Part shown: positions 896 through 42,214 of the stretch, one piece after another | How the letters are laid out: each line of letters opens with the position of its first letter | Numbering within the stretch: the first letter of the stretch is position 1 | Assembly: GCA_000310025.1 (NCBI GenBank) | Contig: FN648476.1 | Location: 147,973 to 197,449 of the forward strand | DNA length: 49,477 nt | Direction: 5' to 3' | Source of the DNA: Ectocarpus siliculosus | Taxonomy: Eukaryota > Sar > Phaeophyceae > Ectocarpales > Ectocarpaceae | The notes under the pieces: generated by a model | The model's input: only the letters and a program-made list of their open reading frames with translations | Told to the model about the DNA's origin: nothing | Database searches by the model: none | Program-made: the position numbers and the translations under genes

Positions 896-1789
896 CGCGG
901 GGCGTGCCCCCGGCGACCACCTTGTCTTCAGCTTTTGTGTGCTGCGCGTTTTTTCGGCGCTTTGCACCGTTCACGCTTTTGGGGGCTTTGGTCGTCAATC
1001 ATGGGGAGGGGTAGAACATATTATTGACAGCGACACACTCCTTCCTGTTGTTTGCTGTTGATTCTATTGCATGCATCAACGTGTTACGCTCAACTGGACA
1101 TGACGAGTAGTTGGAGGTGTCGACACACCCAGAGACACATGACGTGGTCTTACGACACTGAGAAAGTAGCGGAAGCAACAGAGGAATATCGGAAATCAAG
1201 AATCCTTCAAGATCTTGTAGCCCATAAAAACAAGCAACGGTATATAAAGAATCGACCAGGGATATACAACAATCAGTAATCAAAGCTGACCACTGGACGC
1301 TGCCGCCGTGAATACCGGCGAGAAAACCGGAGAAAATTGCTCACGGCATTTCTCGCTCATGTGCACAAGGGCACGCTCATTATCTCTCCTTGTGTTCCTC
1401 ACTTCCCGGGGCCCCTTTCATTACAGAAAGGCATGCGTACCCAAACAGGGTGTACGTGACTGTGGTCACCGAATTAATGCCAGCTTTAATGGAGCTTGCG
1501 TTTGATAAATAGGTGCCACCTCGCAATTGGCGTCCAACCTGGGTACTGTATTGCCGACACCGTCTAATACCGGGTCAGACTGGTGCCAGTTGCAGTCGTC
1601 TTAGATCGGACAACCGCCTTGCTGATATCGCCGTATATCGGGACCCCCACGGAGTGCACAATTTCTATTTTATTTTCTTGTTTTTGGGGGGTAGGAAGAA
1701 GAAGGAGAGAGAGAGAGAGAGAGAGAGAATGAGGGACAACACTTGAGGAGCTCATTGCAGCGGGGCACCGGCCAAAGCGCTACTCGTTA
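896..1789. other. No gene recognised; short GA microsatellite
   Basis: No exon with recognisable protein similarity was found on either strand. A (GA)n microsatellite of about 12 units lies at 1704-1728. The stretch ends where the inverted duplication begins. Confidence 0.5.
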
Positions 1790-2242
1790 CGAGTTTTCAG
1801 CGTTCGGCGCGAGGATTGCGTGCTACTCGCTGCCGCATGGTGAGCGAATGCCTTCACGGCCGGTCTTATTTCACGTGAGTACGTGTGACGAGGAAGAAGA
1901 AAACGTAATGTGACGTTCGTAGAAACGGCCGTGCGGCAACGCTTGCCGGGACCAGGGACATGTTTTTCCCCGCCGCACGAACGGCCGTACCCAAGACAAT
2001 GACCACCATCCACCTCACTCAATGCACTCTTGGGAACTACAGCATAGCCCATTCATCTCTCTTCCTCAACAGTTTCGTCCGCAATTCTTCTACTAAATAC
2101 GTGTACAATATTCTACGTTTTTGGGTTGTTTCTCGCTGTTCGACACCGTCCTGGTCGAAATTTTACAGTATATCTAAATCTACAGAACTGTTGCACAGTT
2201 TCACCCCGCGCGGCAGGTGGCGCTCGCGGGTTCAAGGGGCCC

Positions 2243-5200
2243 CTAAGCAGCGCATGCTCGCTCGAACACCGGCCGACTAGGCATCTCGACAATTTCTCCC
2301 TCCTCAATCTCGTCATCGTCTGTGCCGTCCGCCTTCCCAGGAGATGAAGTTGACGTCGAATCACCTTCGGAACCTGATGCACCCTCCGAGTCGCTGCCTG
2401 TCTTAGGTCTCTTGCCCCCGCTACCCTGCGTTGCGGCCGAGGTATCCTCCGTAATTTCGTCACGGGACCGCTTCCTGTTGTCGCGACCATCCTGTGCCAA
2501 TATCCCGGACTCCCTTCTATCCATGGCCTTGCCGTCGAGACCACCGCCTCGTATCGAATCAGCGTCACAGTTAGATTCCATGCATGCATCCTCCTTCGCT
2601 TTGAAAGCCATCTGACTGCTCCCGCCGTTGCACTGCTGCCTGCCATCGGCAGAGTCTTGAGCGCGGCCAGTCTTCGTCAACGCAGAGGCACCAATGCTGT
2701 CGGGTCGGCTAAGGTGAGTCTTCGACGGGAGGCTCGGGCATGGCAGAGGTCTCGGCTTCGTCGCCGGTGGGGCTTTGGCGAGGGGGCTTGGGCGGGCCGT
2801 CGAGGGTGACCTTGGTGCTTTGCCGTAGGAGGGAAGGCGAGAAGAGCCGGCCGGGGCCACAGAGTTGGTCCCCTTAGGCATCGAGGGCGGCTTCGGCCAT
2901 GTGCAGGATGTGGGCTCAGACTTCGGCTCGGGGGCGCTTGGTGTTCGGGGTGTAGGAGTCACCGGGAGCATTAGCGTGCTTACCGGCAGGGGCGCAGACG
3001 ACGTCAGTGACTTCGGCGTGCATGGCGGCGGGGGTGTGATGGGCATCCTTATCGGCTTGGGGGTGCTCGGCGGTCGGTGTGTGAGCGATTCCAGACCCTT
3101 GATCGTGGATACCGTCAGGGGTTTAGACGTCTGAAGCGGCTTGGGGGTGGTCGGCGGCCGGGGCGTTGGCTTCTTGACCAGGTTAGGCGTGCATGGCAGT
3201 CGGGGTGTGAGCGACTCCAGACCGATGGTCGTGGTTACCGGCAGGGGTGTAGACGTCTGAAGCGGCTTGGGGGTGGTCGGCGGCCGGGGTGCTGGCTTCT
3301 TGACCAGGTTAGGCGTGCTTGGTTGCCGGGGCTTTGGCGTGGTGGGTGGCCGGGGCTTGTGCGTGCTTGGTGGCCTAGCTGCGAGAGTCACCGGTAGCTT
3401 GGGGGCGTTTGGGGGCGGGGGGGTGAACGACTTCTTCGGCTTGGGCGTGTTGGGTGGCAGCGGCGTAGACCTCCCCAGTGGCTTGGGCATGTTTGGCGGC
3501 CGGGGTGTGGTGGGCGGGCGGGGCTTAGGTGTGTTCGGCGGGCGGGGCTTAGGCGTGTTCGGCGGGCGGGGCTTAGGTGTGTTGGGCAGGCGGGGCTTGA
3601 GCGTGCTTGGCGGCCGGGGTGTACACGCCTTCGGCTGGGTCGTGGTAGCAGGCGGTCCGGACTTCGAAGTCCAAGATGAGCTCGACCTAGCGTTGTTCGG
3701 GAGCACCCCCCGGGGCAGTGGTGGTCGCGGACGAGGTCGCTTCTCCGCGGTGTTGCTCGCAGTGCCAGCGCCAGCCTCCATTCGTTTTCTCTTGCTAGTC
3801 GATGCGTGCGTGGGTGGTTTGCTCGAGTACGATGCGCGCTGCTGGCCCTTGCATGAAGAACCATCCTTGGTCGAGACCTTGCCGCACGTCAAACCACCGC
3901 CAGTAGCCCCACGACTGTGCAATAGCAATACCTTCGGCGGCGGCGGTGGAGGCATCGACGGCCGCCGTCCATCAACCGTCTTGTTCGTCGTCATCGAGGG
4001 TCGGCCTAGCGCCGAAGCTATCCTCTTTCTCCGTTGTGCGTCGTCTCTCTGCTTAGCTAATGCCTTCGTCACGCGGTGCCGAGTGATCTTGGTGCCCGAT
4101 TTGCCTGTGTCGTTGTCCAAGGTTTCCAGCCATTCTTCCGTCGCTCCTGTTCAGCATCGACACACAGCAGTTGCAGCGGAAAAAATGAAGCGAGTTCTCC
4201 CCCGATATCTGCATTTTGCCCTATTGAATGAAAAATCCGTGCGATGAATGGGCTGCTTGCCTAATACCAGGGACCATCCAAGGATCACCCAACCAGGAAG
4301 ACACCTATTTCAGGTCTGACAAGTCCGCGAGCGGGGCCACTCTTCCCGAACCGTTGCTACCCAGCTATATTCACAATGGCGCGGCCTTGTTCGTAGTTCA
4401 GCATGGGGCTGAGCCTCAACTGCAAAATTGGAGGTTGGTTTGCCATACCGAAAAAGCGCCTACTTCCTCGCCTTCATACGTTTCGTTCGAAACATAGCGC
4501 CCGTTGAAACAAAAAAAACGAACTGCGATAAACGATGCTCGTTTGATCCCGAGGTTTTGGGCTATGCAACTTGGGCTCGTATTTGCGTCAAGCGCTCCGA
4601 CTCGGCCGCAGACGACTCCCACGGTAAGCACAGTTGTCCAACGACATCTAAGCCTCGGTTGAAACCATGCGCACAAAAGCCAATCAAACACCAATGCGAG
4701 AGCATCGTTCTAGCAAACAAGTTTTGAAAATTTCTGCACGAGTGGCAGGGGAGAGTCAGGCTCACGCTCGAGTTGGCCGGGGTCCTTGAACTGCAGAACC
4801 TCCGTCCACTCGCCCGACTGTGGCGGCGGAACGTTGTTGACAAGCAGGGATAGGTACGTCGCTAGCCTCGCGCGGAAGGTCGGGGGGTACTCGAGGCACA
4901 TCGTCCACTTCAAACTGTGGGAGGAATCAAGTAACGCAGGTGGGAGTGCGTGTGTCAGAAACTCAGACAATACGACCCCCGCCATATGCGTCAAAAAATG
5001 TGGGGGCTGGCGGAGATGGGCGGAAAGCTCTTGGGGTTGGGACGGACCACCAAAACATCGACGCGCTGGAGGACAACTGTGAACCTCGTGCGAATTTGGT
5101 CTTGACCAGGCACCCCTGCTGGTCATGCTTTTCGGATGCGAATGATGCCCCTGCGCTCGTCCAAATAAACCGCAACCTGCGGCGCACGACCATTGTCCCA

Positions 5201-8200
5201 TAGTCCGTCCACAGCTGTTAGTTTCACGCCGTTCTCAGGGTTCGCGCAACGTTACGCGCCGATCTCGATATTCTACCCACCACAGTATACCGCCAGCGTA
5301 CATCGCGACCCCGTGCTGAGCTGTACCCCCGCACGCTTGAATAACGCACCTCTGACTTAGCAGGTGGCAGCAGCCCTTGGAGATCAAGGCCCCCATGTTT
5401 TCCCGTACCCAGCCTTTAGGGCCGGTTAGGGAAAGGCGGTTTTGAGGCATAAGACCATGGTATGGCTGTGGGTATCGCACGATATCTCACGCGATAGTCC
5501 CGGCATGCGGCCCCAGACGCGGAAAAGGCGAAAACCACGTCTCTAACACAGGACACTTGGAAACGCCGGTGTGGTTGGTCGGTCGAGCTCCTATTCAGCG
5601 GTGGTGAGCACCTACTTGTCACGTTTTGCTCTTCTTGTGTCGAGATCGGACAAACCTCAACCGCTTCTTTCACCACTCTACAAGGCTCAAGGGGTCACCG
5701 ACAGACAGGATCAACCCGACCACTTGATATCGAGGAGTGTCGTACACCCAAGACGCTAATAGAGTGTGTTCCCCAGCCCCTTTCCCTCTCCCCCAAATCT
5801 CGACACACAACCTATTAGACGCGGCAGCCCGTCCCTCACCCATTCTTTGAAAGTGCAGGATCAGGTCGTTGGCGTGCGGGTAGGCGTGCTCGATCAAGAA
5901 GTCGAACCCCAGTGCACTCATAATCTTGTTCTCGACTTTGACCACCCGGGTTTTGAATCTTTTGTACGCCTGGCAATCGAGGCATGGGGCCGCGGAGGAG
6001 GGGAAATGAACGACTCCGGGTGCGGCTAACGATTATCATGTATCTCAACGGTTGACAGTACTTCGAGAAGCTCAACAACGGAAAGAAGCCGTCCTCGGTA
6101 GCACTGCGATGCAAGTGAACTGGTCGTGTTAGTTTCTCGCCGGTCTCATCTCGTCCACAGGTTGGTGCCGAAGCTTTCTTGCCGGTAGTGGGCGCTATTT
6201 CTAAACTCACTTCCGAGGGGTCCGAGCGCCCGATGATGGCATAGTTGGCGACTTTGTTTGTGACGATGAGGACGTCCTTGATGTGGATTTTGAAGTCCTC
6301 CACCTTGCTGGCCAGCAAGACTGACGCCGCCACCGTGTCCTGATCGAAAAACCACAACAACGCACACAAATCAGGAACAGCCAGCGAGGTTTCGAGGCCA
6401 GACTCCGTTACCCACGGGCGTCTTGACTACCGTTGAAAAAATCATATCCGAGGTGTTCTTCTGTTCCTTACAGAGCCCAGTGCTTGTGGGTGGTCACACT
6501 TCAACCGTCCGTAGAATTCGGTTGTTTGGAGTTGTCTCACCCCACAACGTATACCACAAATGGGTGTGAAAAGTACTCGACTAGCCCCGGGCCGAGAGCA
6601 AGTTAGAATCACTAGAATCCTCCCTTCTCCTTGTGAAAAAGCGTTAATACCCGAGGTGATGTGTTCTGTTGCTTACGTTCATGCACGTTGCGACAAAAAA
6701 AAAAAAATCCACAACCACCTTGCGATAAGTCGGAACCCGGAGGGCAATGGCGTCGTCTTGTTCGTGATGTCAATACTTGCGATGCCCGTAGCTTCGAAGT
6801 TTCGAACGCATGGGCCCATATGCTCTAGGCTACAAACGTGTCGTTGTTGTTGTTGTTGTTTGTGATGGTCATCGTTTTGCTATTGGCCAGACGTTTAATT
6901 TGTTGGTAGTTAGTAGTTCCTGTCGGGGCACGTTCCTCTACTACTATGGTACACACACAACCCCCCTCCCCCTCGCAGAATTAATGTCGGACCGGGTTGC
7001 TACGGTGCGTTTGTCGACCATCGCACCTTCCAATTCTGAACAGATTCTTGCTGCTGAATGATTTTTGTTTTTCTCTCTTTCGGTAGTATCGAAGGTGTGC
7101 ACCTCACAAATGATTTCATGTAGCGTAGCTGGAGATGACACGCTAATCGTAGCCCATGGTCATGGCGAGCGATGGAGTAGATGACACCACTCGTCTTCCA
7201 AAAACTTGGGCACCAAAAAATATTCGACACAAATACCGTCCCACGCAAAACAGAAAAAATATTAGTATACAGTAGTCCATCCATACACGGCATTTTTTGC
7301 GCCCTACAGTGGTGGTACCTCTAGTGGTACATGGTCACACTACCTGAAGGAGGAAATACTCTCGTCTAGAGAGCAGCTGGGATCTCGATGCTTGCAGCAA
7401 TAATCTTCATGAATATTACCAGTGAATGTTCGGTGTTGGCGGGCACCGCAAAGAAAATAGGAACTTGATTGGAGGTGCCAAGTACTCCTCGCGGTGGTCT
7501 GATGGTATGCGCGTTAAAAAATTGAGAATGACTGCGAGGGACCGACGGCTCAGACGAGTTCCAACGGCAGAGTTTTGAGTGCTGGCGAGATCGCTGCTGC
7601 ACGACGGTCGCGGGAGCCGCAGCTTGGTCGGCATAGCCCGCGTACTGGCATTGGATGGGACATAACTCCAAACACGCAGCGACCCATCTACTGTAGCTCG
7701 TTTTGCGCACAGGCATTGTGACAATTTGGTGCATCTATCGGTCATGTGTCCCACAGGGTGAACACGAAACCTGACAGAGGCGAGCGGTTTTGGCACCAAG
7801 TACTACTGCTGTTGTAGGAGTGAAGTAATTCCTAAAGCCAAACAGTTGCGGCGAAGTTTCGCAGCCAAGAGTAGTGATACAGGCCATTTTCCCTGGGAAC
7901 GCAAACCATATGTTATCCACATGCTGACGCAGAGGGAATATGCAGCCCAATATCAGGGATATCACGCAAAGAGCTAGCTACATAGAACGAGAGAGTTTAC
8001 TCTAGTGAAAAGTGAGGTTCACGAAAGTCTCGGTTGGAAAACTAAAATCTGACGGATATTCATTCGAAAATTTGAATGCACCAGCAACAATTATTATAGC
8101 ATTCTGTCGGGGGCTGTAAAGAATATGTGTGCACCCACCACCAAACACAGAAGCTATGGCACAACCCGTGGCGTGACTTCTTTCTATTCTCCCTGGGCTT

Positions 8201-9629
8201 ACACACCGGCTTCAATATGCCAGCAGCTATTGATTGGCGGCGAGTTGTAGAACAACCGCACTGCTGCTGTTCAAAGTCACTTTCTCCGCGACGGCATGCT
8301 GCGATGGGTACGTTTTGGTGTAGTGTTAGAAACGGAAGATAGTACGACAAGAAAGACACCTCCCTCGCTCACATGTAAGTTGATGTCCGTGAAGGATACT
8401 AGTGCGAGGAAGCGCTGGTAGATTGTCATCGCCCCAGCTATCACCACCGCCTTCGTTTTCAGCCGCTTGCAGATCTCCAACATGAGCTTGTGCGCCTGCG
8501 CGCGGTGCTCTTTGTCGTAACGGAGTTGTTTCGCCCGCCAGAGGGGGTCGACTTGGCCGCATCCCATCCTACAAGACACAACACACGGACGAGCAGCAGT
8601 ACGGGCGCAAGCAGCCGAGAGCGAATGAATATCAAGTGAACAGAGAGACCGCCTGCGAGCGCGTACCAGGTTCCAACCCCATACCAACGACTACAAAGCA
8701 AGCGCTGCACTCCTGGAAATTGCGGCTACAGTCGAGATCGATTGAACGGCGGACTTTTCCCACGGAATGATCATGATCATCCAGCACTGCTGCTGGTTGT
8801 CGATTGCTATGGCCCACGTTGGACAATGTGTACTGATACCTGAGAGTGATGAGCATGCCAACATTCTCTATCGAACTGGTTCCTCCGTGTTGTTCACAAA
8901 CATTTCGGCGGAACCTTACAGTGCGGCTTGAGCCGCGCGCAGGTCGTGGCGGGCCAAATAGCTATGTACCACCTTTCGGAATAATGTAATGACGCAGCGA
9001 CGGTGACCAAACTGGAGGAAGTCTCCATACTTCTTGCTGCGGTGCACTTAATCTTCACACGAGAAAGGTGTCCCCTCCCTCACGAGTGTGCTCTTTTCAC
9101 TTGTAATCTCGAGGTTTTAGAACGCACACGCGCGTGGTTTGGCAGGCTATTACGGCGGTACCTGTACAACGTGAGCATGATGGCATTCCTCACCCAAAAC
9201 AGCAGCACGTGATGTTTTCGCCAGGAGAAGGGGCGTTGAAGAACAACAGCGCTTTTCCATACAGCAACCAATATCAAAGTTCTGCAGACGGGTGAGAAAG
9301 TCACAGAGAAGAGCGGGCATCACACAGCTCCCCCAGGCACTGCAGATGAAAATATCGTTACCACTGCTGTACAGCAGCAGTACAAATGTGTCTCCTCACC
9401 TGCTGCTCTTCTTGACGAAGGGGGGATTTTCCAGCTCCTCCAAGGTGAACTTCCACCCACGGTCCTCCCAACCAAAGTCGGAGCGCCTCCCAACCCTCGT
9501 CATGACCGCTTGCTCCTTTCCATCGTCTACCGGCTTCGCTGCGGCTACTCCTGTGTCAGTCATCGCCCCAAGTGCGGCGGCGAGCGGGTGAAGTGGCTGA
9601 TTGTGTGATCTGCCGAGGGAGTTCCTCAC
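2243..9629 (-). CDS. Transcriptional-type cyclin (K/T/L-like) with a long TPKP-repeat tail; intact copy
   Basis: Seven exons on the minus strand keep phase throughout: 9629-9400, 8568-8373, 6339-6211, 5969-5840, 5413-5350, 4914-4766 and 4146-2243 (stop TAG). All introns are GT-AG, and the product is about 933 residues. Exon 1 carries WKFTLEELENPP, resembling the entry motif of cyclins K, T and L. Exons 2-4 form the first cyclin fold (AHKLMLEICKRLKTKAVVIA, DTVAASVLLASKVEDF, then KVENKIMSALGFDFLIEHAY). Exons 5-6 resemble a shortened second fold (ALISKGCCHLLSQ, LKWTMCLEYPPTFRARLATY). Exon 7 encodes a disordered basic, Pro/Thr/Lys-rich tail with many TPKP units, nuclear-type basic clusters (KRPRPRPP, RKRSRD) and an acidic end containing DDDEIEEGEIVE. 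In known families such cyclins activate CDK9/12/13-like kinases on RNA polymerase II; that role is inferred here. A second in-frame ATG at 9563 would give about 911 residues. Confidence 0.85.
6663..9208. other. 2.5-kb segment with exon 2, absent from the right arm
   Basis: The segment is bounded by direct copies of GTGATGT at 6656-6662 and 9209-9215. In the right arm the flanks are joined at about 11910-11918 with one copy of the short motif. It contains part of intron 1, all of exon 2 (8568-8373) and much of intron 2. Because it holds an exon needed for the cyclin fold and for reading phase, it is read as ancestral sequence deleted on the right, not as an insertion on the left. Nothing else coding is visible in 6663-8372. 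Confidence 0.85.
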
Positions 9630-11498
9630 AGGACCCGATCGATCCTACCCTTCTCCAGGAGCTTGTCTAGTCAGGTCGTTCCTTGGCTTATCGCTTACAC
9701 TGGTCTCACGTGCTGGGAGCTGGCGCCTCTGTATCAAGCTATTTAGAAACCACAAGGAGAAGTGTGGGGCGGCCACCGGCGCAAAACATGGCGGAGCGGG
9801 GGGCTCTGTGACGTGTGAATCGTTTTAATCCGGGGGGGTCTACAGAAGAACCAAGCCGCTGTCCAATGAAACCACTCTGTACGTCAGTCATTTTGCGGCG
9901 GAACAGACGCCCCACGCTCTCTCTCCCCGGGGACTATTTAGTGACATCCCCTTGTTTTCAAACAGAGGCGTTGTCCATTGATCGCTAGCGCCGCACTGGC
10001 GGGCATTCACACCAACGATTTCTACCGGCTGGCTGTTCGCGCCTCGTTCGTTGGGCGACCCACCTGTCTGTCCCGTTCACGAATCCACTCTCACGAACGA
10101 CGGAACAGGGCACGATGTCCTTGGAGTTCCTCTAACCTGGCGAACGTACTGTATTAGTATTTGGGAAAAGTGTTTATCTTTGGCTTGTATCTTGATGGGC
10201 ATGTTGTCGCCTCGCTCGTGTCCCCGCTTGAAACACGGGCAACCCTGTTCTCGGGGTTGATTTAGAATCGGGGACATGGGCACTGATAGCCCGACGGGAG
10301 TGAAGGGTCTCAACCACACACTCTTTGTCCAACCGCCTACAGGTACAGTACATTTGGCACAAAACGCAGAAAGAGGTCACCGCAAAACCCTGTGATGTTG
10401 CATCAAACGGGTGAACGCAGCACTGAAAAAAATGTGTCATTGTTAAGGAGGACCCGATTCGCAGGGTATTAGTCGATTGACTTTTACCAGAATCGGTACA
10501 CCTTCGCATATGGCGTCAGCAGGATGATACTGGTTCGAATCTCCTTGGGTGCACGTTTTTCTCCTGACTTGGACATTTTCCCATGGACACAATGTGTGTC
10601 AGTCCTGAGAACACCTCTTGGAATCGATCCTATAAAGAACCTTGTGACACATTCATCGAATACCCGTCCTGGCCACAAGAGGTTCCCAGTTGAGGGTAAT
10701 TCTGTGGGTGGAGAGTGTTAAGGAGGACCCGACTCGCAGGGTATCAGTCGATTGACTTTTACCAGAATCGGTACACCTTCGCATCATTGTACGAGCGAGC
10801 ATGTGCATCCGGTCGTCAGGCGGTTGCCACATCGCATCATACCAGCAGTTAAACTAAGTCTTGTGGGTGGGCCTGTGACCACAGCTCATCGAAACAACAT
10901 ACCTGTCGGTGGGGTGATGATGTGGAACATCTCTGAGAAGCCCAGTAGCCTAGACTATGGTTCAGACCGTACGAAACAAAAGCAACAAGGACACGGGCAA
11001 CATTTGCAGCAGCAGCATTCGTCCCGACCACAAACGAAGCGCTTTCATAACAGAGCATGCGTGCTGCAGTGAACGTCACAGCCATGCAACCACATCCCCG
11101 AGGTGTGCATACATACGCAAGAACAAGGCCGCGAAGATTGGATCCAAATGCTTACTCTTTGTACAAGATTCCCCTTCGGACAACGAGTGACATTGCTTGG
11201 GTTACACGCAGGGAGTCAGGCAAGATGGGAGGAATGTAGAATATGTTTCTGTGTGTATGGCGGGTGATCAGACGGTAGCACCCTGGTAGCCGGTGCGGAT
11301 TGAAAAGATTCACACGTCACAGAGCCCCCCGCTCCGCCATGTTTTGCGCCGGTGGCCGCCCCACACTTCTCCTTGTGGTTTCTAAATAGCTTGATACAGA
11401 GGCACCAGCTCCCAGCACGTGAGACCAGTGTAAGCGATAAGCCAAGAAACGACCTGACTAGACAAGCTCCTGGAGAAGGGTAGGATCGATCGGGTCCT
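9630..11498. promoter_or_regulatory. Shared divergent upstream region of the two head-to-head cyclin copies
   Basis: The start codons of the left gene (minus, 9629) and the right copy (plus, 11499) face away from each other across about 1.87 kb. About 200 bp beside each start is duplicated as part of the arms, so both copies kept the same proximal upstream sequence. No defined promoter element was recognised. Calling it regulatory rests on position alone. Confidence 0.35.
10441..10784. repeat. 69-bp direct repeat pair in the spacer of the duplication
   Basis: Positions 10441-10509 and 10716-10784 share 67 of 69 bases, beginning TGTTAAGGAGGACCCGA and ending GGTACACCTTCGCAT. They are 206 bp apart. 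The remainder of the spacer (9832-11301) is single copy and holds no gene I can recognise. Confidence 0.9.
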
Positions 11499-14400
11499 GT
11501 GAGGAACTCCCTCGGCAGATCACACAATCAGCCACTTCACTCGCTCGCCGCCGCACTCGGGGCGATGACTGACACAGGAGTAGCCGCAGCGAAGCCGGTA
11601 GACGATGGAAAGGAGCAAGCGGTCATGACGAGGGTTGGGAGGCGCTCCGACTTTGGTTGGGAGGGCCGTGGGTGGAAGTTCACCTTGGAAGAGATGGAAA
11701 ATCCCCCCTCCGTCAAGAAGAGCAGCAGGTGAGGAGACACATTTGTACTGCTGCTGTACAGCAGTGGTAACGATATTTTCATCTGCAGTGCCTGGGGGAG
11801 CTGTGTGATGCCCGCTCTTCTCTGTGACTTTCTCACCCGTCTGCAGAACTTTGATATTGGTTGCTGTATGGAAAAGCGCTGTTGTTCTTCAACGCCCCTT
11901 CTCCTGGCGAAAAAATCACCTCGGGTATTAACGCTTTTTCACAAGGAGAAGCGAGGATTCTAGTGATTCTAACTTGCTCTCGGCCCGGGGCTAGTCGAAC
12001 TCCTTGAGTACTTTTCACACCCATTTGTGGTATACGTTGTGGGGTGAGACAACTCCAAACAACCGAATTCTACGGACGGTTGAAGTGTGACCACCCACAA
12101 GCACTGGGCTCTGTAAGGAACAGAAGAACACCTCGGATATGATTTTTTCAACGGTAGTCAAGACGCCCGTAGGTAACGGAGCCTGGCCTCGAAACCTCGC
12201 TGGTTGTTCCTGATTTGTGTGCGTTGTTGTGTTTTTTCGATCAGGACACGGTGGCGGCGTCAGTCTTGCTGGCCAGCAAGGTGGAGGACTTCAAAATCCA
12301 CATCAAGGACGTCCTCATCGCCACAAACAAAGTCGCCAACTATGCCATCATCGGGCGCTCGGACCCCTCGGAGGTGAGTTTAGAAATAGCGCCCACTACC
12401 GGCAAGAAAGCTTCGGCACCAACCTGTGGACGAGATGAGACCGGCGAGAAACTAACACGACCAGTTCACTTGCATTGCAGTGCTACCGAGGACGGCTTCT
12501 TTCCGTTGTTGAGCTTCTCGAAGTACTGCCAACCGTTGAGATACATGATAATCGTTAGCCGCACCCGGAGTCGTTCATTTCCCCTCCTCCGCGGCCCCAT
12601 GCCTCGATTGCCAGGCGTACAAAAGATTCAAGACCCGGGTGGTCAAAGTCGAGAACAAGATTATGAGTGCACTGGGGTTCGACTTCTTGATCGAGCACGC
12701 CTACCCGCACGCCAACGACCTGATCCTGCACTTTCAAAGAATGGGTGAGGGACGGGCTGCCGCGTCTAATAGGTTGTGTGTCGAGATTTGGCGGAGAGGG
12801 AAAGGGGCTCGGGAACACACTCTATTAGCGTCTTGGGTGTACGACACTCCTCGATATCAAGTGGCCGGGTTGATCCTGTCTGTCGGTGACCCCTTGAGCC
12901 TTGTAGAGTGGTGAAAGAAGCGGTTGAGGTTTGTCCGATCTCGACACAAGAAGAGCAAAACGTGACAAGTAGGTGCTCACCACCGCTGAATAGGAGCTCG
13001 ACCGACCAACCACACCGGCGTTTCCAAGTGTCCTGTGTTAGAGACGTGGTTTTCGCCTTTTCCGCGTCTGGGGCCGCATGCCGGGACTATCGCGTGAGAT
13101 ATCGTGCGATACCCACAGCCATACCATGGTCTTATGCCTCAAAACCGCCTTTCCCTAACCGGCCCTAAAGGCTGGGTACGGGAAAACATGGGGGCCTTGA
13201 TCTCCAAGGGCTGCTGCCACCTGCTAAGTCAGAGGTACGTTATTCAAGTGTGCGGGGGTACAGCTCAGCACGGGGTCGCGATGTACGCTGGCGGTATACT
13301 GTGGTGGGTAGAATATCGAGATCGGCGCGTAACGTTGCGCGAGCCCTGAGAACGGCGTGAAACCAACAGCTGTGGACGGACTATGGGACAATGGTCGTGC
13401 GCCGCAGGTTGCGGTTTGTTTGGACGAGCGCAGGGGCCTCATTCGCATCCGAAAAGCATGACCAGCAGGGGTGTCTGGTCAAGACCAAATTCGCACGAGG
13501 TTCACAGTTGTCCTCTAGCGCGTCGATGTTTTGGTGGTCCGTCCCAACCCCAAGAGCTTTCCGCCCATCTCCGCCAGCCCCCACATTTTTTGACGCATAT
13601 GGCGGGGGTCGTACTGTCTGAGTTTCTGACACACGCACTCCCACCTGCGTTACTTGATTCCTCCCACAGTTTGAAGTGGACGATGTGCCTCGAGTACCCC
13701 CCGACCTTCCGCGCGAGGCTAGCGACGTACCTATCCCTGCTTGTCAACAACGTTCCGCCGCCACAGTCGGGCGAGTGGACGGAGGTTCTGCAGTTCAACG
13801 ACTCCGGCCAACTCGAGAGTGAGCCTGACTCTCCCCTGTCACTCATGCAGAAATTTTCAAAACTTGTTTGCTAGAACGATGCTCTCGAATTGGTGTTTGA
13901 TTGGCTTTTGTGCGCATGGTTTCAACCGAGGCTTAGATGTCGTTGGACAACTGTGCTTACCGTGGGAGTCGTCTGCGGCCGAGTCGGAGCGCTTGACGCA
14001 AATACGAGCCCAAGTTGCATAGCCTAAAACCTCGGGATCAAACGAGCATCGTTTATCGCAGTTCGTTTTTTTTGTTTCAACGGGCGCTATGTTTCGAGCG
14101 AAACGTATGAAGGCGAGGAAGTAAGGGCGCTTTTTCGGTATGGCAAACCAACCTCCAATTTTGCAGTTGAGGCTCAGCCCCATGTTGAACTACGAACAAG
14201 GCCGCGCCATTGTGAATATAGCTGGGTAGCAACAGTTCGGGAAGAGTGGCCCCGCTCGCGGACTTGTCGGACCTGAAATCGGTGTCTTCCTGGTTGGGTG
14301 ATCCTTGGGTGGTCCCTGGTATTAGGCAAGCAGCCCATTCATCGCACGGAGTTTTCATTCAATCGGGCAAAATGCAGATATCGGGGGAGAACTTGCTTCA

Positions 14401-16680
14401 TTTTTTCCGCTGCAACTGCTGTGTGTCGATGCTGAACAGGAGCGACGGAAGAATGGCTAGAAACCTTGGACAACGACACAGGCAAATCGGGCACCAAGAT
14501 CACTCGGCACCGCGTGACGAAATCATTAGCTAAGCAGAGAGACGACGCACAACGGAGAAAGAGGATAGCTTCGGCGCTAGGCCGACCCTCGATGACGACG
14601 AACAAGATGGTTGATGGACGGCGGCCGTCGATGCCTCCGCCGCCGCCGCCGAAGGTGTTGCTATTGCACAGTCGTGGGGCTACTGGCGGTGGTTTGACGT
14701 GCGGCAAGGTCTCGACCAAGGACGGTTCTTCATGCAAGGGCCAGCAGCGCGCATCGTACTCGAGCAAACCACCCACGCACGCATCGACTAGCAAGAGAAA
14801 ACGAATGGAGGCTGGCGCTGGCACTGCGAGCAACACCGCGGAGAAGCGACCTCGTCCGCGACCACCACTACCCCGGGGGGTGCCCCCGAACAACGCTAGG
14901 TCGAGCTCATCTTGGACTTCGAAGTCCGGACCGCCTGCTACCACGACCCAGCCGAAGGCGTGTAAGCCCCGCCCGCCAAACACACCTAAGCCCCGCCTGC
15001 CCAACACACCCAAACCCCGCTCGCCGAACACGCCTAAGCCCCGCCCGCTGAACACACCTAAGCCCCGCCCGCCCACCACACCCCGGCCGCCAAGCATGCC
15101 CAAGTTGAGGAGGTCCACTCCGCTGTCACCCAACACGCCCAAGCCAAAGAAGTCGTTCAACTCCCCGCCCCCAAACACCCCCAAGCCACCGGTAACTCTC
15201 GCGGCTAGGCCACCAAGCACGCCCAAGCCCCGGCCACCCACCACGCCAAAGCCCCGGCAACCAAGCACGCCTAACCTGGTCAAGAAGCCAGCACCCCGGC
15301 CGCCGACCACCCCCAATCCGCTTCAGACGTCTACACCTCTGTCAGTAGCCAAAACCATGGGTCTAGAGTCGCTCCCAGCCGCCATGCACGCCCATCGTGC
15401 TCAAGAAGCCAGCACCCCGACCGCTGAGCACCCCCAAGCCGAGAAGGATGTCGATCACATCCCCGCCGCCATGCACGCCTAAGCCACTGACATCGTCTGT
15501 GCCCCTACCGGTAAGCACGGTAATGCCTCCGGTGCCTCCTACACCCCAAACACCAAGCGCCCCAAAGCCGATGTCGGAGTCCATCCCCTGCACAGGGCCG
15601 AAGCCGCCCTCGATGCCTAAGGGGGCCAACTCTGAGACCCCGGCCGGTTCTTCTCGCTTGCCCTCTTACGGCAAAGCACCAAGGTTACCCCCCACGGCCC
15701 GCCCAAGCCCCCTCGCCAAAGCCCCACCTGCGACGAAGCCAAGACCTCTGCCATGCGCGCGCCTCCCGTCGAAGACTCACCTGAGCCGACCCGACAGCAT
15801 TGGTGCCTCTGCGTTGACGAAGACTGGCGGTGCTCAAGCCGATGGCAAGCGGCCGCGCAACGGCGGGAGCAGTCAGATGGCTACTATAGCGAACGCGGAG
15901 GCATGCATGGAATCTAACGGTGGTCTCGACGGCAAGGCCATGGATAGAAGGGAGTCCGGGATATTGGCACAGGATGGTCGCGACAACAGGAAGCGGTCCC
16001 GTGACTAATCAACGGAGGATACCTCGGCCGCAACGCACGGTATCGGGGGCAAAAGACCTAAGACGGGCAGCGGCTCTGAGGGTGCATCAGGTTCCGAAGG
16101 TGATTCGACGTCAACCTCATCTCCTGGGAAGGCGGACGGCACGGACGATGACGAGATTGAGGAGGGAGAAATTGTCGATATGCCTAACCGGCCGGTGTTC
16201 GAGCGAGCATGCGCTGCTTAGGCGGCGCCTTGAATCTGCGAGCGCCGCCTGCCGCGAAGCATGAAACTGTGCAATAACTTTGTAAATATTTTATGTGCTG
16301 TAAACTATCGACCAGGACGGTGTCGAACAGCGGGAAACAACCCACAAACGTAGAATATGGTACACGTATTTAGTAGAAATGTGGTGAACGAAACTGTTGA
16401 GCTTGAGAGATAAACGGGGGGGCTATGCCGTAGTTCCAAAGAGTAGATGGAGGTGGCTGGTGGTCGGTGTCTTGGGGGCGGCCGTTCGTGCGGCGGGAAT
16501 ATACATATACCTGTGGCCCCGGCAAGCGCAGCCGTGCGGCTGTTTCCGCGAACGTCACATCACGTTTTACTCCTTCCCCGTCACGCGTACCTACGTGAAA
16601 CGAGACCGGCCTTGCAAGCATTCACTCACCCCGTGGCAGGTTGTAGCACGCAATCCTCGTGCCGAACGTGAAAAAACATC
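11302..16680. repeat. Right arm of the large inverted duplication
   Basis: Reverse-complement counterpart of 1790-9831, shortened by the 2.5-kb deletion near 11914. Homology continues about 450 bp beyond the cyclin stop, through the block with GACCAGGACGGTGTCGAACA, and ends near 16680. The third partial copy that follows repeats the 3' flank again at about 19000-19480. Confidence 0.93.
11499..16222 (+). pseudogene. Second cyclin copy, decayed: exon 2 deleted, frameshift and early stop
   Basis: Exon remnants are at 11499-11728 (exon 1), 12245-12373 (3), 12615-12744 (4), 13171-13234 (5), 13670-13818 (6) and from 14440 (7). They are nearly identical to the left gene and retain its splice sites and phases. 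Exon 2 is gone. Joining exon 1 (ends in phase 2) to exon 3 (starts in phase 0) shifts the frame and removes half of the first cyclin fold. In exon 7 a net 5-base loss near 15376 shifts the frame, giving a stop at 15480-15482. In the restored frame a TAA at 16006-16008 replaces GAC/GAA-type sequence, ahead of the conserved acidic tail that ends near 16220. It could be transcribed but should not make a normal cyclin. Confidence 0.85.
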
Positions 16681-16857
16681 GTCGCGTCTAGCGCTTTGGC
16701 CCTTTGGGCCGCTGGAATGAGGTCCTCAGCTGTTGCCCTTCCCTCCCTCATCATGTTATCTATATGCTCACAGGATGGTCGTCGTGACGTGATACATTTC
16801 TTGTTATTAGTATGGAAAAAAAAAAAATGGCTCAATTTGTTTTTTCTACAGCATTCT

Positions 16858-19480
16858 TGACTCCTCCCACAGCTTGAGGTGGACAACGTGCCTCGAGTAC
16901 CCCCCGACGTTCCGCACAAAGGCTGGCGGCGTACCTATCCCTGCTTGTCAACCGCTTTGACCCGTCACCGTTGGGCGAGTGGATGGAGATTCTGCAGTTC
17001 GAGGACCGGCCGACTCAAGAGTGAGCCTGACTCTCCCCTGCTATGTGCACAACATTTTCACAACTTGTTTGCTAGAACGGTATTCTGAAATATGGTGATC
17101 GGCCGCTAATCTGTGAATTAAGGTGGATATCAACCGTTCGGCGAGAAACGCTCCCTCTCCAACACGTCGGATTGGAAACAGGTGTCTCTGTTGTAACCGC
17201 TGGCATTCGGCATGCAGCCGATTCATCGCACAAATCTTGGCCTGTACACTAGAGCATGTTGCAGATGTCGGCCGAGGATCCACTTCACGGTTTCGCTGCG
17301 TCCACTGCTGTGTGTCTGATGCCGAGCAGGGGCGGCATGTCGTCTACTGGACACCTTGGACAACGAAGAGGGCAAAACGCGTCACATGCAAAAGAGTGTC
17401 GGTAGCGTTGTCTGGCCAGAGCGCATCGTTTTCAAGCAAGCCACCGACGCACGCTTCGACCAGCAGGAAGCGAGTGGAGGCTGACGCTGGCACCGCGAAC
17501 AACACCGTGGAGAAACGAACTCGCCCGCGATCACCTCTGCCGCGGGGGCTGCCCCCTAACAACGGTAAGTCAAGCTTCTCTTGGAGCTCAAAGTCGGGAC
17601 CGCGTTCTACCACGAAGGGGCCGAAGACGTGTACACCGCGGCCGCCCACCACTCCCAAGCCCCACCCGCCCACCACAACCAAGCCGGTGAAGATGCCTTT
17701 CACAGCCCGGCCGCCTAGCACGCACAAGACATCGGTCACTACCACACCACGGCCGCCGAGCAGCGGTGGCCTCCACTCGCTTCCTCTTGCTGGTCGAAGC
17801 GTGCGTCGGTGGCTTGCTTGAAAACGATGCGCTCTGACAACACTACCGACACTCTTTTGCATGTGATATTGGTGCGCGTTTTTCCCTCTTCGTTGTCCAA
17901 GGTGTCCAGCAGTTGATATGCCGCCCTTGTTCGGCATTCGACACACAGCAGTTGACGCAGCGAAACCGTGCGAGTGGATCCTCGGCCAATATCTGCAACA
18001 AGAGGTCTATGCCGCTGCCATCGAACATGCCTAAGCCACTGAAGTCGTTCACCCCCCCGCCGCCAAGTGCCCCCAAGCCACCGGTGACTCTCGTAGCTAG
18101 GCCGCTAAGCACGCCCAAGCCCCGGTCACCCACCACGCCCAAGCCCCGGCAACCAAGCACGCCTAACCTGCTCAAGACGCCAGCACCCCGGCCGCCGAGC
18201 ACCCCCATGTCGATAAGGATGTTCATTCCAACCCCCACGCCTAAGCTGAAGACGTCTGCGCCCCTGCCGGTAAGCACGGTAAAGCCACCGGTGACTCTCA
18301 CACCCCGGATGCCAAGCTGCCCCAAGCCGGCGTCGGAGCCCATCTCCTGCACAGGGCTGAAGCCGCTATTGATCCCCAAGGGTACCAGCTCTGTGGCCCC
18401 GGCCGGTTCTTCTCGCCTGCCCTCCTATGACAAAGCACCAAGACCACCTTTGACGGCTCGCCGTACCCCTCTCGGCAAAGCCCCACCGGCGAAGAAGCCA
18501 AGGCCTCCGCCATGCCCTCGACTCCCGTCCAAGACTCACCTGAGCCGACCCGACAGCATTGCTGCGTCTGCGTTGACGAAGACTGGCGGTGCTCAAGACT
18601 CGGCCGATGCAAGGGGCAGTGCAGCGGCGGCAGCGGTCAAATGGCTATCAAGGCGACGGTGGATGCATGCATGGAACCTAACGGTGGTGCTGATTCGGCG
18701 CGAGGCGGTGGTGTCGACGGCGAGGCCTTGGACAGAAGGGAGTCCGGGATATTGGCACATGATGGTCGCGACAACAGGAAGCGGTCCCGTGACGAATCAA
18801 CGGAGGACACCAACGCAACTGGGGCAAGAGGCCTAAACTGCGACTCGGAGGGTGCATCATGTTCCGAAGGTGATTCGACGTCAAATCCATCTCCTGGGAA
18901 GGCGAACGGCGCCGGAGATGACGAGATTGAGGGGGGAGAAATTGTCGAGATGGCTAACCGGCCGGTGTTGGAGCGAGCGCGCATGCGCTGCTTAGGGGGC
19001 GCCTTGAACCCGCGAGCGCCTCCTGCCGCGCGGGGTGAAACTACGCAGCAATTTTGTACAACTAGATATACCGCTAGGTATCGACAGAGATGGCGTTTAA
19101 GAGCAGGAAACAACCACAAGCAAAGTAACATTTAGTGCACGTATCCAACACTTCCAAGTATTGGGTAGAAGCGTTGGTGGATGAAGCTGTTGAGGGAGAA
19201 GAGGTGCAAGGCGGTGCTTCCGGTAGTTCCCAACAGGACATTGGGTTTGCTGGAGGTCGGTGCCTTGGGTGCCGCCGTTTGTGGGACGGGAATAAACTTT
19301 TACCGCCCGTCGGCAGTCGGAGAGGCCAGGCCGTAGGCATCGACGTCACGCAATATTTCATGTCCTCGTCAAACGTGCTCATGTTAAGCGAGATCGGCCT
19401 TGCAAGCACCCGCTCACGGGACAAAGATTGCAGCGCAACTCTCGCACCTGACGCTTGGAACTCGTAGCGGCTAGTGCTTC
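16858..19480 (+). pseudogene. Third cyclin copy: 5'-truncated tandem fragment with internal rearrangement
   Basis: The fragment begins just before an exon-6-like piece (16873 to about 17020, preceded by TCCTCCCACAG). That piece has an extra base after TTCCGC that breaks the frame. Pieces of exon 7 follow at 17420-17770 (start of the tail, TPKP-type codons) and 18003-19030, ending in the same acidic tail and the 3' flank up to about 19480. Exons 1-5 are absent. Sequence divergence from copies 1 and 2 is clearly larger than between those two, so this is the older duplicate. The open frame 17913-18836 contains readable TPKP repeats but no cyclin fold. Confidence 0.8.
17259..18002. repeat. Inverted duplication inside the third cyclin copy
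   Basis: Positions 17259-17485 recur in reverse complement at 17768-18002, separated by about 280 bp of exon-7-like sequence. The shared block includes GCTTGCTTGAAAACGATGCG on the right arm and its complement near 17420. The rearrangement places part of exon 7 and the end of intron 6 on the opposite strand and is not present in the other two copies. Confidence 0.88.
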
Positions 19481-20929
19481 GGCCGGTGCGTCGCTGGAAG
19501 GAGCTGCATAGCTGTTATCCCTCTCATTTCTTCTGCCCCACGTAGTCCTACCAAAAGAATAGAAAAGCAACACAGCGACTCCACCAAAGTGGGGGTCCCG
19601 ATATAAGGCGATATGAGCAAGGTAGTTGCCCAGTCTAAGGTGACTGGAATTGACACTACAAGTAGTTCAGAGCCGGTATTCCGCGATATCATGTCCAGGC
19701 TAGACCGTACTCGTGAGGTGGTACGAAATACGAGCCCCCCTTAAAGCGGTGATCATCTGTTTGGGCACGGGTATCTTTCTGTCGCGAGGGAGTTCCAGGA
19801 AAGGAAAGGACACAACGAGAGAGAAACGCCGGGGCCCTTCTGCACGTCAGCACAATATCCCGCGAGAAACTGTCTCTCGGTTTTACTGAAGCCGTATACA
19901 CGGCGGCAGCGTCCCCGTTCAGCTTGCAATACTTGTGCCAATGTCACCCTCACTGATTCTTGGCATACTGTTTCTTGGTTATGGGCTCCAAGATCTTGTT
20001 TGATTCTTGATTTCCCGAATTTTCGCTGCTACTTCGCCCCTTGCTCTGTGTCATGAGACCGCTTTGTCTTGCCTCTGAAATATTAAATGTCGATGCAAAC
20101 ACTACAGTAGAGTCAATAGCGAACACCGGTGCGTGTGTCGCTGTCGTTCGATCAGCTAACCCCCCCCCAAAAGAAGTATTAACACCGCAATAGAGATACA
20201 ACATCACTTCCCGACCACTAGCTCGGGGTGGCGAACGTTGGGGGATGTCGTACATATCTCTGAACTTCCTGACCCCCTATTCTGGTGTAGGTCCATCACC
20301 ACCGGCGCTCCAACGGCATTGTGTCTTCGTCAGTGCGCTACGACCGATAAGGCAACGATGCTACACTCAGCGTGCAGTGCGGTGCGCGCAAACTCAGGCC
20401 AACCCAGGGGGCGGGAGTTGGCACCGAAAATCACCCGCAACACTCCGCCCTAGATCCAATGCTCTGGAGAATACGAACAAGGCGGGAGGGGGGGAGTCAT
20501 CACGAGAAACGCTTCGTATTCTTCACACTCCCCGCTTTACCGCTCATGGCGGTGTCTTGGGGGTTTCAGGGGCGTTCTGTTCTTCTTGCTATAATTCGTA
20601 ACCCGACCACGACATCTTCGGGCGCATCGAAACCCATATTTTCAGCGACGTGTAGCTCAGTGTTCCTTGCTGCTTGCCACAACTATCTGCACATTGAATT
20701 TGCGATATTCCCGAGTTGAGTAGGATTATTTGTTGTTTTGGCCCTCATTCGATGGGGCCGCAGTATCTGCCTATTGCAACGAAAGTTATCCACGGTAAAC
20801 CATAGGGAAGGTCGCGGAATCAGGCGTACTGTCACTGGGCAGAAGGCAAAGGTGGTTTGAACGAATGTTGACAATATATCAGTACACCTCGGTACTAGGT
20901 TTTTAGGCGGGTTCAGGCGGGGCAGTACT
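19481..20929. other. No gene recognised
   Basis: Several short open frames exist on both strands, but none shows domain features, splice-site logic or similarity to the other genes. No repeat shared with the rest of the window was seen. Confidence 0.4.
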
Positions 20930-21240
20930 TCAATGTGGCGGTACTTTTTTGGCTGTAGGCGGTATTTCGTTTCCCGGCGGTACCGCCTTTGGCGGTTCCC
21001 GGTACTGCCAATTTTGACGGTACTTTTCTCGCGGTACTGCAATATGGTGGTTTTTTTAGGCGGTTCCCGGTACTTCGTTTTTTGGCGGTACTTCTTCGGC
21101 GGTACTGCAATATGGCGGTACTTTTTTGGCGGTAGGCGGTATTTCGTTTTTCGGCGGTACCGCCTTCGGCGGTTCCCGGTACCACCGAATGTGGCGGTAA
21201 TTACCGTCAGTACCTGGACCGCCCACCACGGCGGGAAAAA
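20930..21240. repeat. GGCGGTAC-rich repeat block
   Basis: The motif GGCGGTAC and its complement recur more than ten times, often as the palindrome GGCGGTACCGCC. Two longer near-identical units occur at about 20935-21003 and 21113-21182 (GGCGGTACTTTTTTGGC, then GGCGGTATTTCGTTT, then CCGCCTTTGGCGGTTCCCGG). The 211-residue open frame across it is an artefact of the repetition. Confidence 0.85.
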
Positions 21241-21651
21241 AACGGCGGGAATTTTCCCGAGGTGTATCCTGAAATGAAAAAAAATATTTATAATGTACGG
21301 CAATGCTGTTTGCTCCACCGGTGGAGTAAGTTCTTATTTGCTCCACCAGGCAGATCTCCACCCACAGAGCTTCAATCGACCTCAAACCAATTGCATCGTG
21401 TAGGTATGGACTACAGCTATCTGCAATGCTACTTACAAGCTAAATCCGACCGGTGGCTACAGAGATATGCTGAAAAAGGGGGTTCCACAGCATGTCAGGA
21501 AGCAGTACGTCTCGAACCTCCGTCCACACCGCTTCAATTGACCTCAAATCTTTTGCATCGTGTGTGCACGGTCCATGCCGTTCTTCTAAGCTATCGGACA
21601 CTCACATCCGATATATTCCCGCAGAGATATGGTCAACCGAGGGGGTTCCGC

Positions 21652-21845
21652 AGCATCTAGGGGGGGGTAACTGGCAATAGTCCCGCTATACCTCCCGCCA
21701 TATAGCTGAACCACGCCTATCTCGGCCCGCATCGTGTTGACACGGAGGGGGTCCGCAGCACCTAGGGGGGGGTAACTGGCAATAGTTCCGCTATACCTCC
21801 CGCCACATAGCTGGACCGCGCCTATCTCGGCCCGCATCGTGTTGG
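21652..21845. repeat. Two tandem 100-bp units in the left foldback arm
   Basis: About 95 bp starting at GCATCTAGGGGGGGGTAACT is repeated from about 21755, ending each time in GCCCGCATCGTGTTG. The right arm has only one copy (about 24240-24330, inverted), so the arms differ in unit number. Confidence 0.85.
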
Positions 21846-22520
21846 CACGGCTCACAGCTATCATTCAAGCCATCCTCCACCCCAATCGGACCAGTGGGTG
21901 CAGAGAAACGCCCCCACGCGGGGGCTCAGTGGGTCAAGGGCCGGTGGAGCAGATAAGCTTATCTGCTCCACCAGGCCAACTCTTCGTTAAGGGTACTGTT
22001 TATCCTACTACGGCTTGTATTGTGTCGGCACCGTTCACAGCTATCATTCAAGCCATCCTCCACCCCAATCGGACCAGTGGGTGCAGAGAAACGCCCACCC
22101 ACGGGGGTTCAGTGACTCAGGGGCCGGTGGAGCAGAAGAGTTAACTGCTTCACCAGGCCAAACTCCATTTACCGGGCGCTGTTTGTCTTACGAAGACTTG
22201 CCTTATGTTGGCCTGGCTCACAGCCATCACACAAGCCATCGGACACCCCGATCGAACCAGTGGTGGCAGAGAAACACCTACCCACGGGGGTTCAGTGACT
22301 CAACGGCCGGTGGAGCAGATAAGCGTAACTGCCCCACCAGGCCAAACTCTATCTACACCGGGCGCTGTTTGTCTCAAGAAGACATTCATTGTGTTGGCCC
22401 GGCCCACAGCTATCATACAAGCCATTGGGCACCCCAATGGGACACGTGGGTGCAGGGAAACGCCCACCCATGGGGATTCATCGCCCAAAGGCCGATGGAG
22501 CAGATATGTGGCCTCTGAGC
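21846..22520 (+). repeat. Four roughly 180-bp tandem units, left arm
   Basis: Each unit contains CACAGCTATCATTCAAGCCA or a close variant, a CCAGTGGGTGCAGAGAAACG block and GGCCGGTGGAGCAGA, followed by GTTTGTCTTACGAAGAC or similar. The first unit has the perfect palindrome GCAGATAAGCTTATCTGC near 21950. Open frames here are repeat artefacts. Confidence 0.85.
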
Positions 22521-22539
22521 CATTTCCTCGTCACATTCA

Positions 22540-23335
22540 CTGTATCCTTTAGTCATATTCACTGTATTCCCTGATCACATACTACGCTGTCATGGGATAT
22601 ACACTGTATTCCCAGATCACACACGCTGTATTCGCTGAGGGGACACACTGTATTCCCTCGTCAGATACACTGTATTCCCTGAGCAGATTCACTGTATTTC
22701 TTCATCACATACAATGTTTCCCTTATCAGATTCACTTCATTCCCTGATCAGAATCGCCGTATTCCCTGGTCAGATACACCGTATTCCTTGATCAGATACG
22801 CTGTATTCCCAGAGCAGATACACGGTATTCCCTCGTCAGATAAACCTTATTCCCAGAGCAGATTCATTGTGTTCCCTCATCAGATAAACTGTATTCCTTC
22901 ATCACATTCACTGCATTCCACGGCGTGCACATCTGATGAGGGATACATTGAATCTGATTAGGGAATACAGTGAAAAGTACAAGGAATACGGTAGTGTATT
23001 TGAAGAGGGAATACGGGGATCGTGACCAGGGAATACAGTGTATTTGATGAGGGAATACAGTGAAACAACGAGGCAGTACGGTGTATCTGATGAGGGAACA
23101 CAGTAAATCAGGGAATACAGTGAAAAGTACGACAAGCACTGTGTATCGGATAAGGAAATACAGTGATCCTGACCAGGGAATACAATGTATTTGATGATGG
23201 AATACAGTGAAATGAGCGAGGGAATACGGAGTATCTGATGAGGGAATACAGTGAATCTGCTCAGGGAATACAGTGTTTAGCGTATCTGATCAACAAATAC
23301 AGTGTATGTGATCAGGAAATACAGTGTATACTACA
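22540..23335. repeat. Central array of 22-28-bp units that switches orientation
   Basis: On the left (22540-22915) about 14 units read roughly CACTGTATTCCCTGATCAGA. On the right (22935-23335) a similar number read the complement. Many contain the palindromes TGATCA or CTGATCAG. The orientation flips once, at the dyad centre, within about 20 bp of single-copy sequence (CACGGCGTGCAC). Confidence 0.88.
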
Positions 23336-23639
23336 TACAGAGCACTGCACCGTCCGAACACGGCGCCAAGAGGTGTCCGTGAGCAGAGAGGAGTACCGAC
23401 AATGGAGGTGGGGTGGCCGTTGTTGGCGGAGAGTGCCGTTAGTTGAGGGGGAGTGCCCCAAACCACCAGGAGGGGGGCGTTATTGGGGGGGTGCCCGTTC
23501 GTTGGGGTGGGTGGGGAGGAGTGCCCGTTAGCCCGGAGGGGAGCCCGTTTAAGAAAATTTCCCATACCCAGGGGGTGCCCCTATCCTGTCACAGTCTTCG
23601 TACGACGATCAGCGCCCGGTGGAGATAGAGTTTGGCCTG

Positions 23640-24240
23640 GTGGAGCAGTTAAGCTCCACCGGCCCTTAAGCCGCCGAGCCCCCGTGGGTTGGCGTTTGTC
23701 TGCACCCACTGGTCCGATTGGGGTGTCCAATGGCTTGCATGATAGTTGTGGGCCGGGTCAACACAATGAATGTCTTCGTAAGACAAACAGCACCTGGTAG
23801 ATGGAGTTTGGCCTGGTGTATCTGCTCCACCGGCCCTTGAGTTACTGCGTCCCCATGGGTGGGCGTTTCCGGTCCCATTGGGGTGTCCGGTGGCTTGAAT
23901 GATAGTTGTGAGCCGTGCCGACACAATACAAGCAGTTAAGCTTATCTGCTCCACCGGCCCTTGAGTCACTGAACCCCCGTGGGTGGGTGTTCCTCTGCAC
24001 CCACTGGTTCGATCGGGGTGTCCGATGGCTTGTATGATAGCTGTGAGCCGGCCAACACAAGGCAAGTCTTCGTAAGACAAACAGCGCCCGGTAGATGGAG
24101 TTTGGCCTGGTGGGGCAGATAAGCTTATCTGCTCCACCGGCCCTTGAGTCCCTGAGCCCCCGTGGGTGGGCGTTTCTCTGCACCCACTGGTCCGATTGGG
24201 GTGGGGGGTGGCTTGAATGATAGCTGTGAGCCGTGCCAAC
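23640..24240 (-). repeat. About four 120-180-bp tandem units, right arm
   Basis: These are the inverted counterpart of 21846-22520, with the same GGTGGAGCAGATAAGCTTA palindrome (complement near 24117-24140) and the GGTGCTGTTTGTCTTACGAA-type block. Units are shortened by different internal deletions, so the arms have diverged since they formed. Between this array and the central array (23336-23640) is a GGGAGTGCCC-rich stretch with no gene. Confidence 0.82.
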
Positions 24241-24400
24241 ACGATGCGGGCCGAGATAGGCGTGGTTCAGCTATGTGGCGGGAGGTATAGCGGGACTATT
24301 GCCAGTTACCCCCCCCTAGATGCTGCGGAGCCCCCTCGGTTGACCATATCTCTGCGGGAATATATCGGATGTGAGTGTCCGATAGCTTAGAAGAACGACA

Positions 24401-42005: not shown

Positions 42006-42214
42006 TGTACTCATAATAGTCGTGCATGCCGATGTCGTTAGACCATTGACCTCGCATCCCTACAAAGCCAGGACGGAGCAGGCCGGGTTCTCACCGGACC
42101 AGGCTTTCATATCACCAAGCGCGAAGCGCCGTGGGATATTCGGCGTGTCACATGAAGGGTGCGCTGCATCATGCTAAGTGTGTTTGGCATCTTGTACTTG
42201 CTTCCTTGCGTACT
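42006..42214 (-). repeat. Dispersed repeat family A, long copy 4
   Basis: Inverted counterpart of 671-895: TAGTCGTGCATGCCG, TTGACCTCGCATCCCTACAA, GGTTCTCACCGGACCAGGCT, TCACCAAGCGCGAAGCGCCG and ATGAAGGGTG, ending near CTTCCTTGCGTAC. Sequence differences to copy 2 are scattered, so neither is a recent duplicate. Confidence 0.82.

Follow-up and report, generated by a model that had tools for sequence, protein, structure and literature searches.

In this study we determined that the inverted copy of a cyclin gene in Ectocarpus siliculosus (contig FN648476.1) is a mosaic of two ages. The 5' part of this copy is nearly identical to the intact gene beside it, the 3' part is several times more diverged, and the step between the two coincides with the edge of a coding repeat array. 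A third, older copy served as a control on both sides of the step. All positions refer to the window, which is the whole stretch of 49,477 nucleotides that was analysed.

Three copies of a cyclin gene

The copies and their parts are placed as follows.

9563-2243, minus: coding part of copy 1, the cyclin gene
9563-9400, 8568-8373, 6339-6211, 5969-5840, 5413-5350, 4914-4766 and 4146-2243, minus: exons of copy 1
1723-9832, minus: copy 1 arm of the inverted pair, which also takes in 269 bp of sequence before the ATG and, at the 3' end, about 520 bp of flank
9833-11295, no strand: spacer between the arms
11296-16749, plus: copy 2, inverted, broken and mosaic (self-BLAST, exon alignment)
11565-11728, 12245-12373, 12615-12744, 13171-13234, 13670-13818 and 14440-16221, plus: exons 1, 3, 4, 5, 6 and 7 of copy 2, exon 2 being missing
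6656-9213, minus: segment of copy 1, about 2.55 kb, missing from copy 2
16856 to about 20060, plus: copy 3, older and partial
17257-17489 and 17761-18000, no strand: inverted duplication inside copy 3

Copy 1 is an intact-looking gene, with seven exons and GT-AG introns that give a single frame of 912 amino acids. A seven-exon cyclin on the minus strand had been placed at 2243-9629 in the first-pass annotation; the gene and its end at 2243 stand, while its start moves to 9563, where coding begins. With the first 290 residues as the query, Pfam Cyclin_N matched residues 67-186 at 49.2 bits (E 5.5e-13; cut-off 23 bits), and the best match among solved structures was cyclin-T1 (2.3e-10). The best 13 of 39 solved sequences were T-type (2.3e-10 to 2.6e-8), followed by L (3.1e-8), K (7.8e-5) and C (8.6e-4), which is a ranking of matches rather than a tree. 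Copy 1 carries the N-terminal cyclin box of the transcription-type cyclins (T/K/L). Like the transcription cyclins T, L, K and C, it combines this box with a W-x-F-T-x-E-x-L-E-N start that aligns to cyclin-T1, but unlike them it has a long tail of proline repeats: exon 7 contains a 24-bp unit and also a 126-bp tandem repeat. The latter comprises two units, 90% alike, at 3069-3322. In the alignment, 84 bp of this region are missing in both copies 2 and 3. Since copy 3 also does not have these 84 bases, although within a larger gap, the difference may be a gain in copy 1, whose tail may have grown recently.

Self-BLAST confirmed the head-to-head inverted duplication claimed earlier, matching copies 1 and 2 in inverted orientation at 3137-6666 / 15441-11909 (96.8%), 9209-9832 / 11919-11296 (98.2%) and 1723-3205 / 16749-15252 (82.7%). 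Introns and flanks align in both arms, and 269 bases upstream of the ATG are common to the two copies, so the view that this was a DNA-level duplication is upheld. A retrocopy was rejected, since the introns align in copy 2 (1.6-1.7% differences) and partly in copy 3. Copy 2 points away from copy 1 across a spacer of 1,463 bases, in which self-BLAST and a sensitive search found no residual arm homology. The spacer holds a 69-bp direct repeat (10441-10509 / 10716-10784).

Copy 2 had been recorded as a broken copy, and we agree. Exons 1 and 3-7 keep their splice dinucleotides, and the segment missing from copy 2 contains all of exon 2 (8568-8373). The motif GTGAT stands at both edges of this segment in copy 1 (6656-6660 and 9209-9213) and once in copy 2, near 11915-11919. 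With one repeat copy left, the loss of exon 2 appears to be a microhomology end-joining deletion with 5-7 bp of microhomology. Two differences between copies 1 and 2 at 6661-6663, on the deletion edge, may be alignment artefacts. Insertion of a 2.5-kb element into copy 1, instead of a deletion from copy 2, was rejected because the segment contains exon 2, which carries part of the cyclin box. When exon 1 of copy 2 is spliced to exon 3, the frame is lost and stops are met. Compared with copy 1, exon 7 has a 5-base gap, an 84-base gap, and an in-frame TAA at 16006-16008 where copy 1 has a sense codon. Copy 2 appears, from its sequence, to be dead as a cyclin and a pseudogene.

Copy 3 starts about 17 bp before exon 6 and comprises that exon, intron 6 in shortened form, exon 7 and 3' flank; it has frame-shifting gaps. 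Self-BLAST matched it inverted to copy 1 (1146-3081 / 20060-18184, 72.7%) and directly to copy 2 (15374-16734 / 18145-19516, 73.9%). An older truncated copy sharing the 3' flank had been reported at 16858-19480; its nature and the shared flank hold, and its extent is now 16856 to about 20060. The claim of at least two duplication events is likewise supported by self-BLAST and the alignment of copy 3. Because the flank homology of copy 3 runs past 16749, where the flank of copy 2 ends, the join between them looks like a tandem duplication of a unit from exon 6 to the flank. The inverted duplication inside copy 3 (211 of 245 columns identical) is a second, separate inverted duplication within this gene family. 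Neither this duplication nor the divergence step described below figured in the first-pass annotation.

The window has a G+C content of 54%. No tRNA was found in it, nor any Rfam match at the gathering threshold. For relatives in other genomes, 6 pattern stretches in viral_contigs (viruses) and 30 stretches in genome_contigs (prokaryotes) were considered, none of which was confirmed. Units of 68 bp rich in GGCGGTACTT are tandemly repeated at 20890-21202. A large inverted repeat, perhaps a foldback-type element, lies at 21571-24405 (21571-21745 / 24405-24231 at 97.7%); its inner arms are built from tandem units of about 183 bp, and its centre (22522-23330) from 22-bp units that run in both orientations. 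A short dispersed repeat at 164-281, 779-896, 30584-30678 and 42007-42213 (89-92% alike), with C runs after two of the places, could be a small transposable element; it had no exact match in viral_contigs. An open frame on the minus strand at 39845-40939 encodes ankyrin repeats (Ank_2 3e-36). Positions 1-480 contain many long homopolymer runs and resemble poor consensus near a contig end.

The divergence step within copy 2

The divergence between copies 1 and 2, taken from piecewise alignment either side of the deletion, separates copy 2 into two zones.

11296-14965, plus: young zone, facing copy 1 from 9832 to about 3621; 59 of 3,658 aligned bases differ (1.6%), introns like exons
14966-16749, plus: old zone, facing copy 1 from about 3621 to 1723; 205 of 1,771 aligned bases differ (11.6%)
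3504-3638, minus: divergence step (3638-3621) and the adjoining 24-bp coding repeat array (3504-3619), from the change-point and array searches; the array in copy 2 is at 14963-15082

The old-zone count starts at 1723, and a start at 1700 gives 222/1,794. A model with two rates gained 119 log units over a model with one, compared with at most 9.7 in 2,000 shuffles. The change-point was estimated at 3621 (two-unit interval 3639-3620, about 20 bp), which in both copies falls at the edge of the 24-bp array. This estimate was unmoved when tandem repeats were left out (gain 116) and when only coding bases outside repeats were used (gain 29.8). Noncoding bases alone put the step somewhere in 4152-2230, a span with no noncoding bases in between; they differ between copies 1 and 2 at 40 of 2,497 positions in the young zone vs 95 of 514 in the old (Fisher 3e-45).

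The order of three neat decay stages given in the first-pass annotation does not survive this result, for a copy with a 5' part at 1.6% and a 3' part at 11.6% has no single age relative to copy 1. A mosaic of two ages requires a further recombination event as well as the deletion.

Copy 3 was used as a control in a corrected three-way alignment, which leaves out its inner inverted piece (17761-18001). Across 771 columns of the young zone, copies 1 and 2 differ at 16 and copies 1 and 3 at 184; across 1,584 columns of the old zone the counts are 177 and 317 (young vs old, Fisher 2e-15). Copy 3 is the outgroup throughout both zones. In intron 6, copy 1 differs from copy 3 at 84 of 303 columns (28%) and from copy 2 at 9 of 303, and in the 3' flank at 156 of 500 (31%) and 90 of 500 (18%), respectively. 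The step is therefore not explained by a shift in mutation rate. Old exon 7, with 8.0% between copies 1 and 2 and 14.9% between copies 1 and 3 over 1,084 columns, is partly constrained, which makes the coding contrast partly non-neutral. Private changes in the old zone number 89 in copy 2 vs 61 in copy 1 (p 0.027).

Jukes-Cantor distances were 0.016 for young noncoding bases, 0.21 for the flank between copies 1 and 2, and 0.40 for the flank between copies 1 and 3. At an even rate, the young event would have about 1/12 to 1/13 the age of the split between copies 1 and 2, and the split of copy 3 would be about twice as old as that split. Among 386 codons of the young zone, copies 1 and 2 differ by 10 synonymous and 9 nonsynonymous changes (dS 0.037, dN 0.010). 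Since synonymous change exceeds nonsynonymous, this suggests that copy 2 was possibly under constraint for a time after the young event. Two stretches of the old zone, of 93 and 88 columns, are free of differences between copies 1 and 2, and in the same three-way alignment copies 1 and 3 differ there at 4 of 72 and 5 of 88 columns. These stretches may be small further tracts, or may reflect constraint.

Origin of the mosaic

We propose that copy 2 is a chimera, in which an old inverted pair or 3' fragment had its 5' part recently rebuilt or overwritten, likeliest by break-induced replication; we hold this with about even confidence. A partial or complete inverted cyclin copy would have been present long ago (3' flank 18%), with copy 3 branching earlier (31%). 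Much later, a recombination event extending into the array of 24-bp proline repeats in exon 7 would have copied the 5' part between the copies: the 269 bp upstream, exons 1-6, the first part of exon 7 and the introns between them. In the likeliest form, the old 3' fragment would have had a broken end that paired, within or beside the array, with its inverted neighbour, and copying would have proceeded outward until 9832, a point without homology. Copy 2 also lost about 2.55 kb that included exon 2, apparently by end-joining at the 5-7 bp microhomology, either later or in the same event. We assume that copying ran from copy 1 to copy 2 because copy 1 is intact.

The young zone is a local block of high identity relative to the control copy, as either interlocus gene conversion or break-induced replication would leave. 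We lean towards replication because the inner edge lies in homologous repeats, the outer edge has no diverged tail, and the tract is long for the C. elegans range. The arm ends at 9832/11296 while still at about 98% identity, and a sensitive search found no diverged tail beyond it; copying that stopped where homology was lacking would leave such an end. Against this reading, the history is fixed by two points only, copy 3 cannot show the direction of copying, and the coding contrast is in part non-neutral. The two difference-free stretches of the old zone also count against it, as there may be more than one tract, and the excess of dS over dN in the young zone would be odd if copy 2 had been dead since the event.

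A substantial share of our confidence, though a smaller one, goes to an old full-length inverted pair whose 5' part was later homogenised by ordinary gene conversion, in one long tract or several. This would yield the same divergence pattern, the difference-free stretches could be its extra tracts, and conversion of adjacent inverted paralogues and within palindromes is well known (PMC3966223, PMC6790999). However, the tract must then end exactly at the arm end, 9832, with no diverged tail left. Its 3.66 kb of aligned sequence also exceeds the 12-2,958 bp quoted for tracts in C. elegans (7,829 pairs), although tracts of more than 12 kb in yeast are quoted in the same source (PMC3966223).

The remaining explanations are improbable. 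A recent whole-gene inverted duplication, with the 3' part of copy 2 then overwritten by a third, diverged paralogue, would give the same two ages, but copy 3, the sole other copy in the window, was rejected as the donor because it differs from copy 2 in the old zone by 21.8%, more than the 11.2% between copies 1 and 2. Slightly less probable still is an assembly artefact in which haplotypes or chimeric reads were joined inverted. The window does begin with a few hundred bases that resemble poor sequence, yet the arms differ blockwise (1.6% and 11.6%) and by the 2.55-kb deletion, and each ends in unique sequence of its own. The arms of a read-through palindrome would match almost perfectly, and haplotypes would normally share one orientation. 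Finally, we give almost no credence to a single inverted duplication in which the step reflects only a shift in constraint or in mutation rate. Exon 7 does have fast-changing tandem repeats, but the step persists without them, the young-side introns stand at 1.6% against 18% in the 3' flank, and copy 3 is about equally far from copy 1 on both sides.

Relation to known systems

The locus resembles the adjacent inverted paralogues of Caenorhabditis with interlocus gene conversion (PMC3966223): the copies are head-to-head neighbours, and within one stretch, including its introns, they are much more similar than elsewhere. Unlike those cases, the aligned tract of 3.66 kb reaches the outer arm end, and the recipient is apparently a pseudogene. 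Inverted gene copies are also involved in rearrangements of human Y palindromes (VCY/P8; PMC6790999). There, an inverted duplication with recombination in a 92-bp repeat was attributed either to non-allelic recombination or to break-induced replication, while junctions with 2-6 bp of microhomology were put down to microhomology-mediated replication. The cyclin locus is much smaller than these palindromes, and a coding repeat array marks the inner edge. In yeast foldback inverted duplication (PMC10622511), an inverted repeat near a break likewise leads to an inverted copy. There, short inverted repeats give dicentric chromosomes, whereas at the cyclin locus long diverged copies would pair and both flanks remain.

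Literature searches, which gave general work on gene conversion, palindromes and duplication, turned up no paper on this locus. It is a new, clearly recorded example of known processes. It indicates that overall identity misdates inverted paralogues, since two ages can coexist in a single copy; here the edge between them is placed to about 20 bp. As a long shot, the proline-coding minisatellite could be a recurrent recombination anchor, which catches the broken ends of partial copies and lets the 5' part and promoter be rebuilt from the inverted neighbour. Pseudogene fragments might then be repeatedly re-armed, and the inner inverted duplication of copy 3 might be one more outcome of the same tendency to fold back. 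If the array is such an anchor, the idea that a coding minisatellite steers repair and rebuilds the front end of a pseudogene could be put to the test at this locus.
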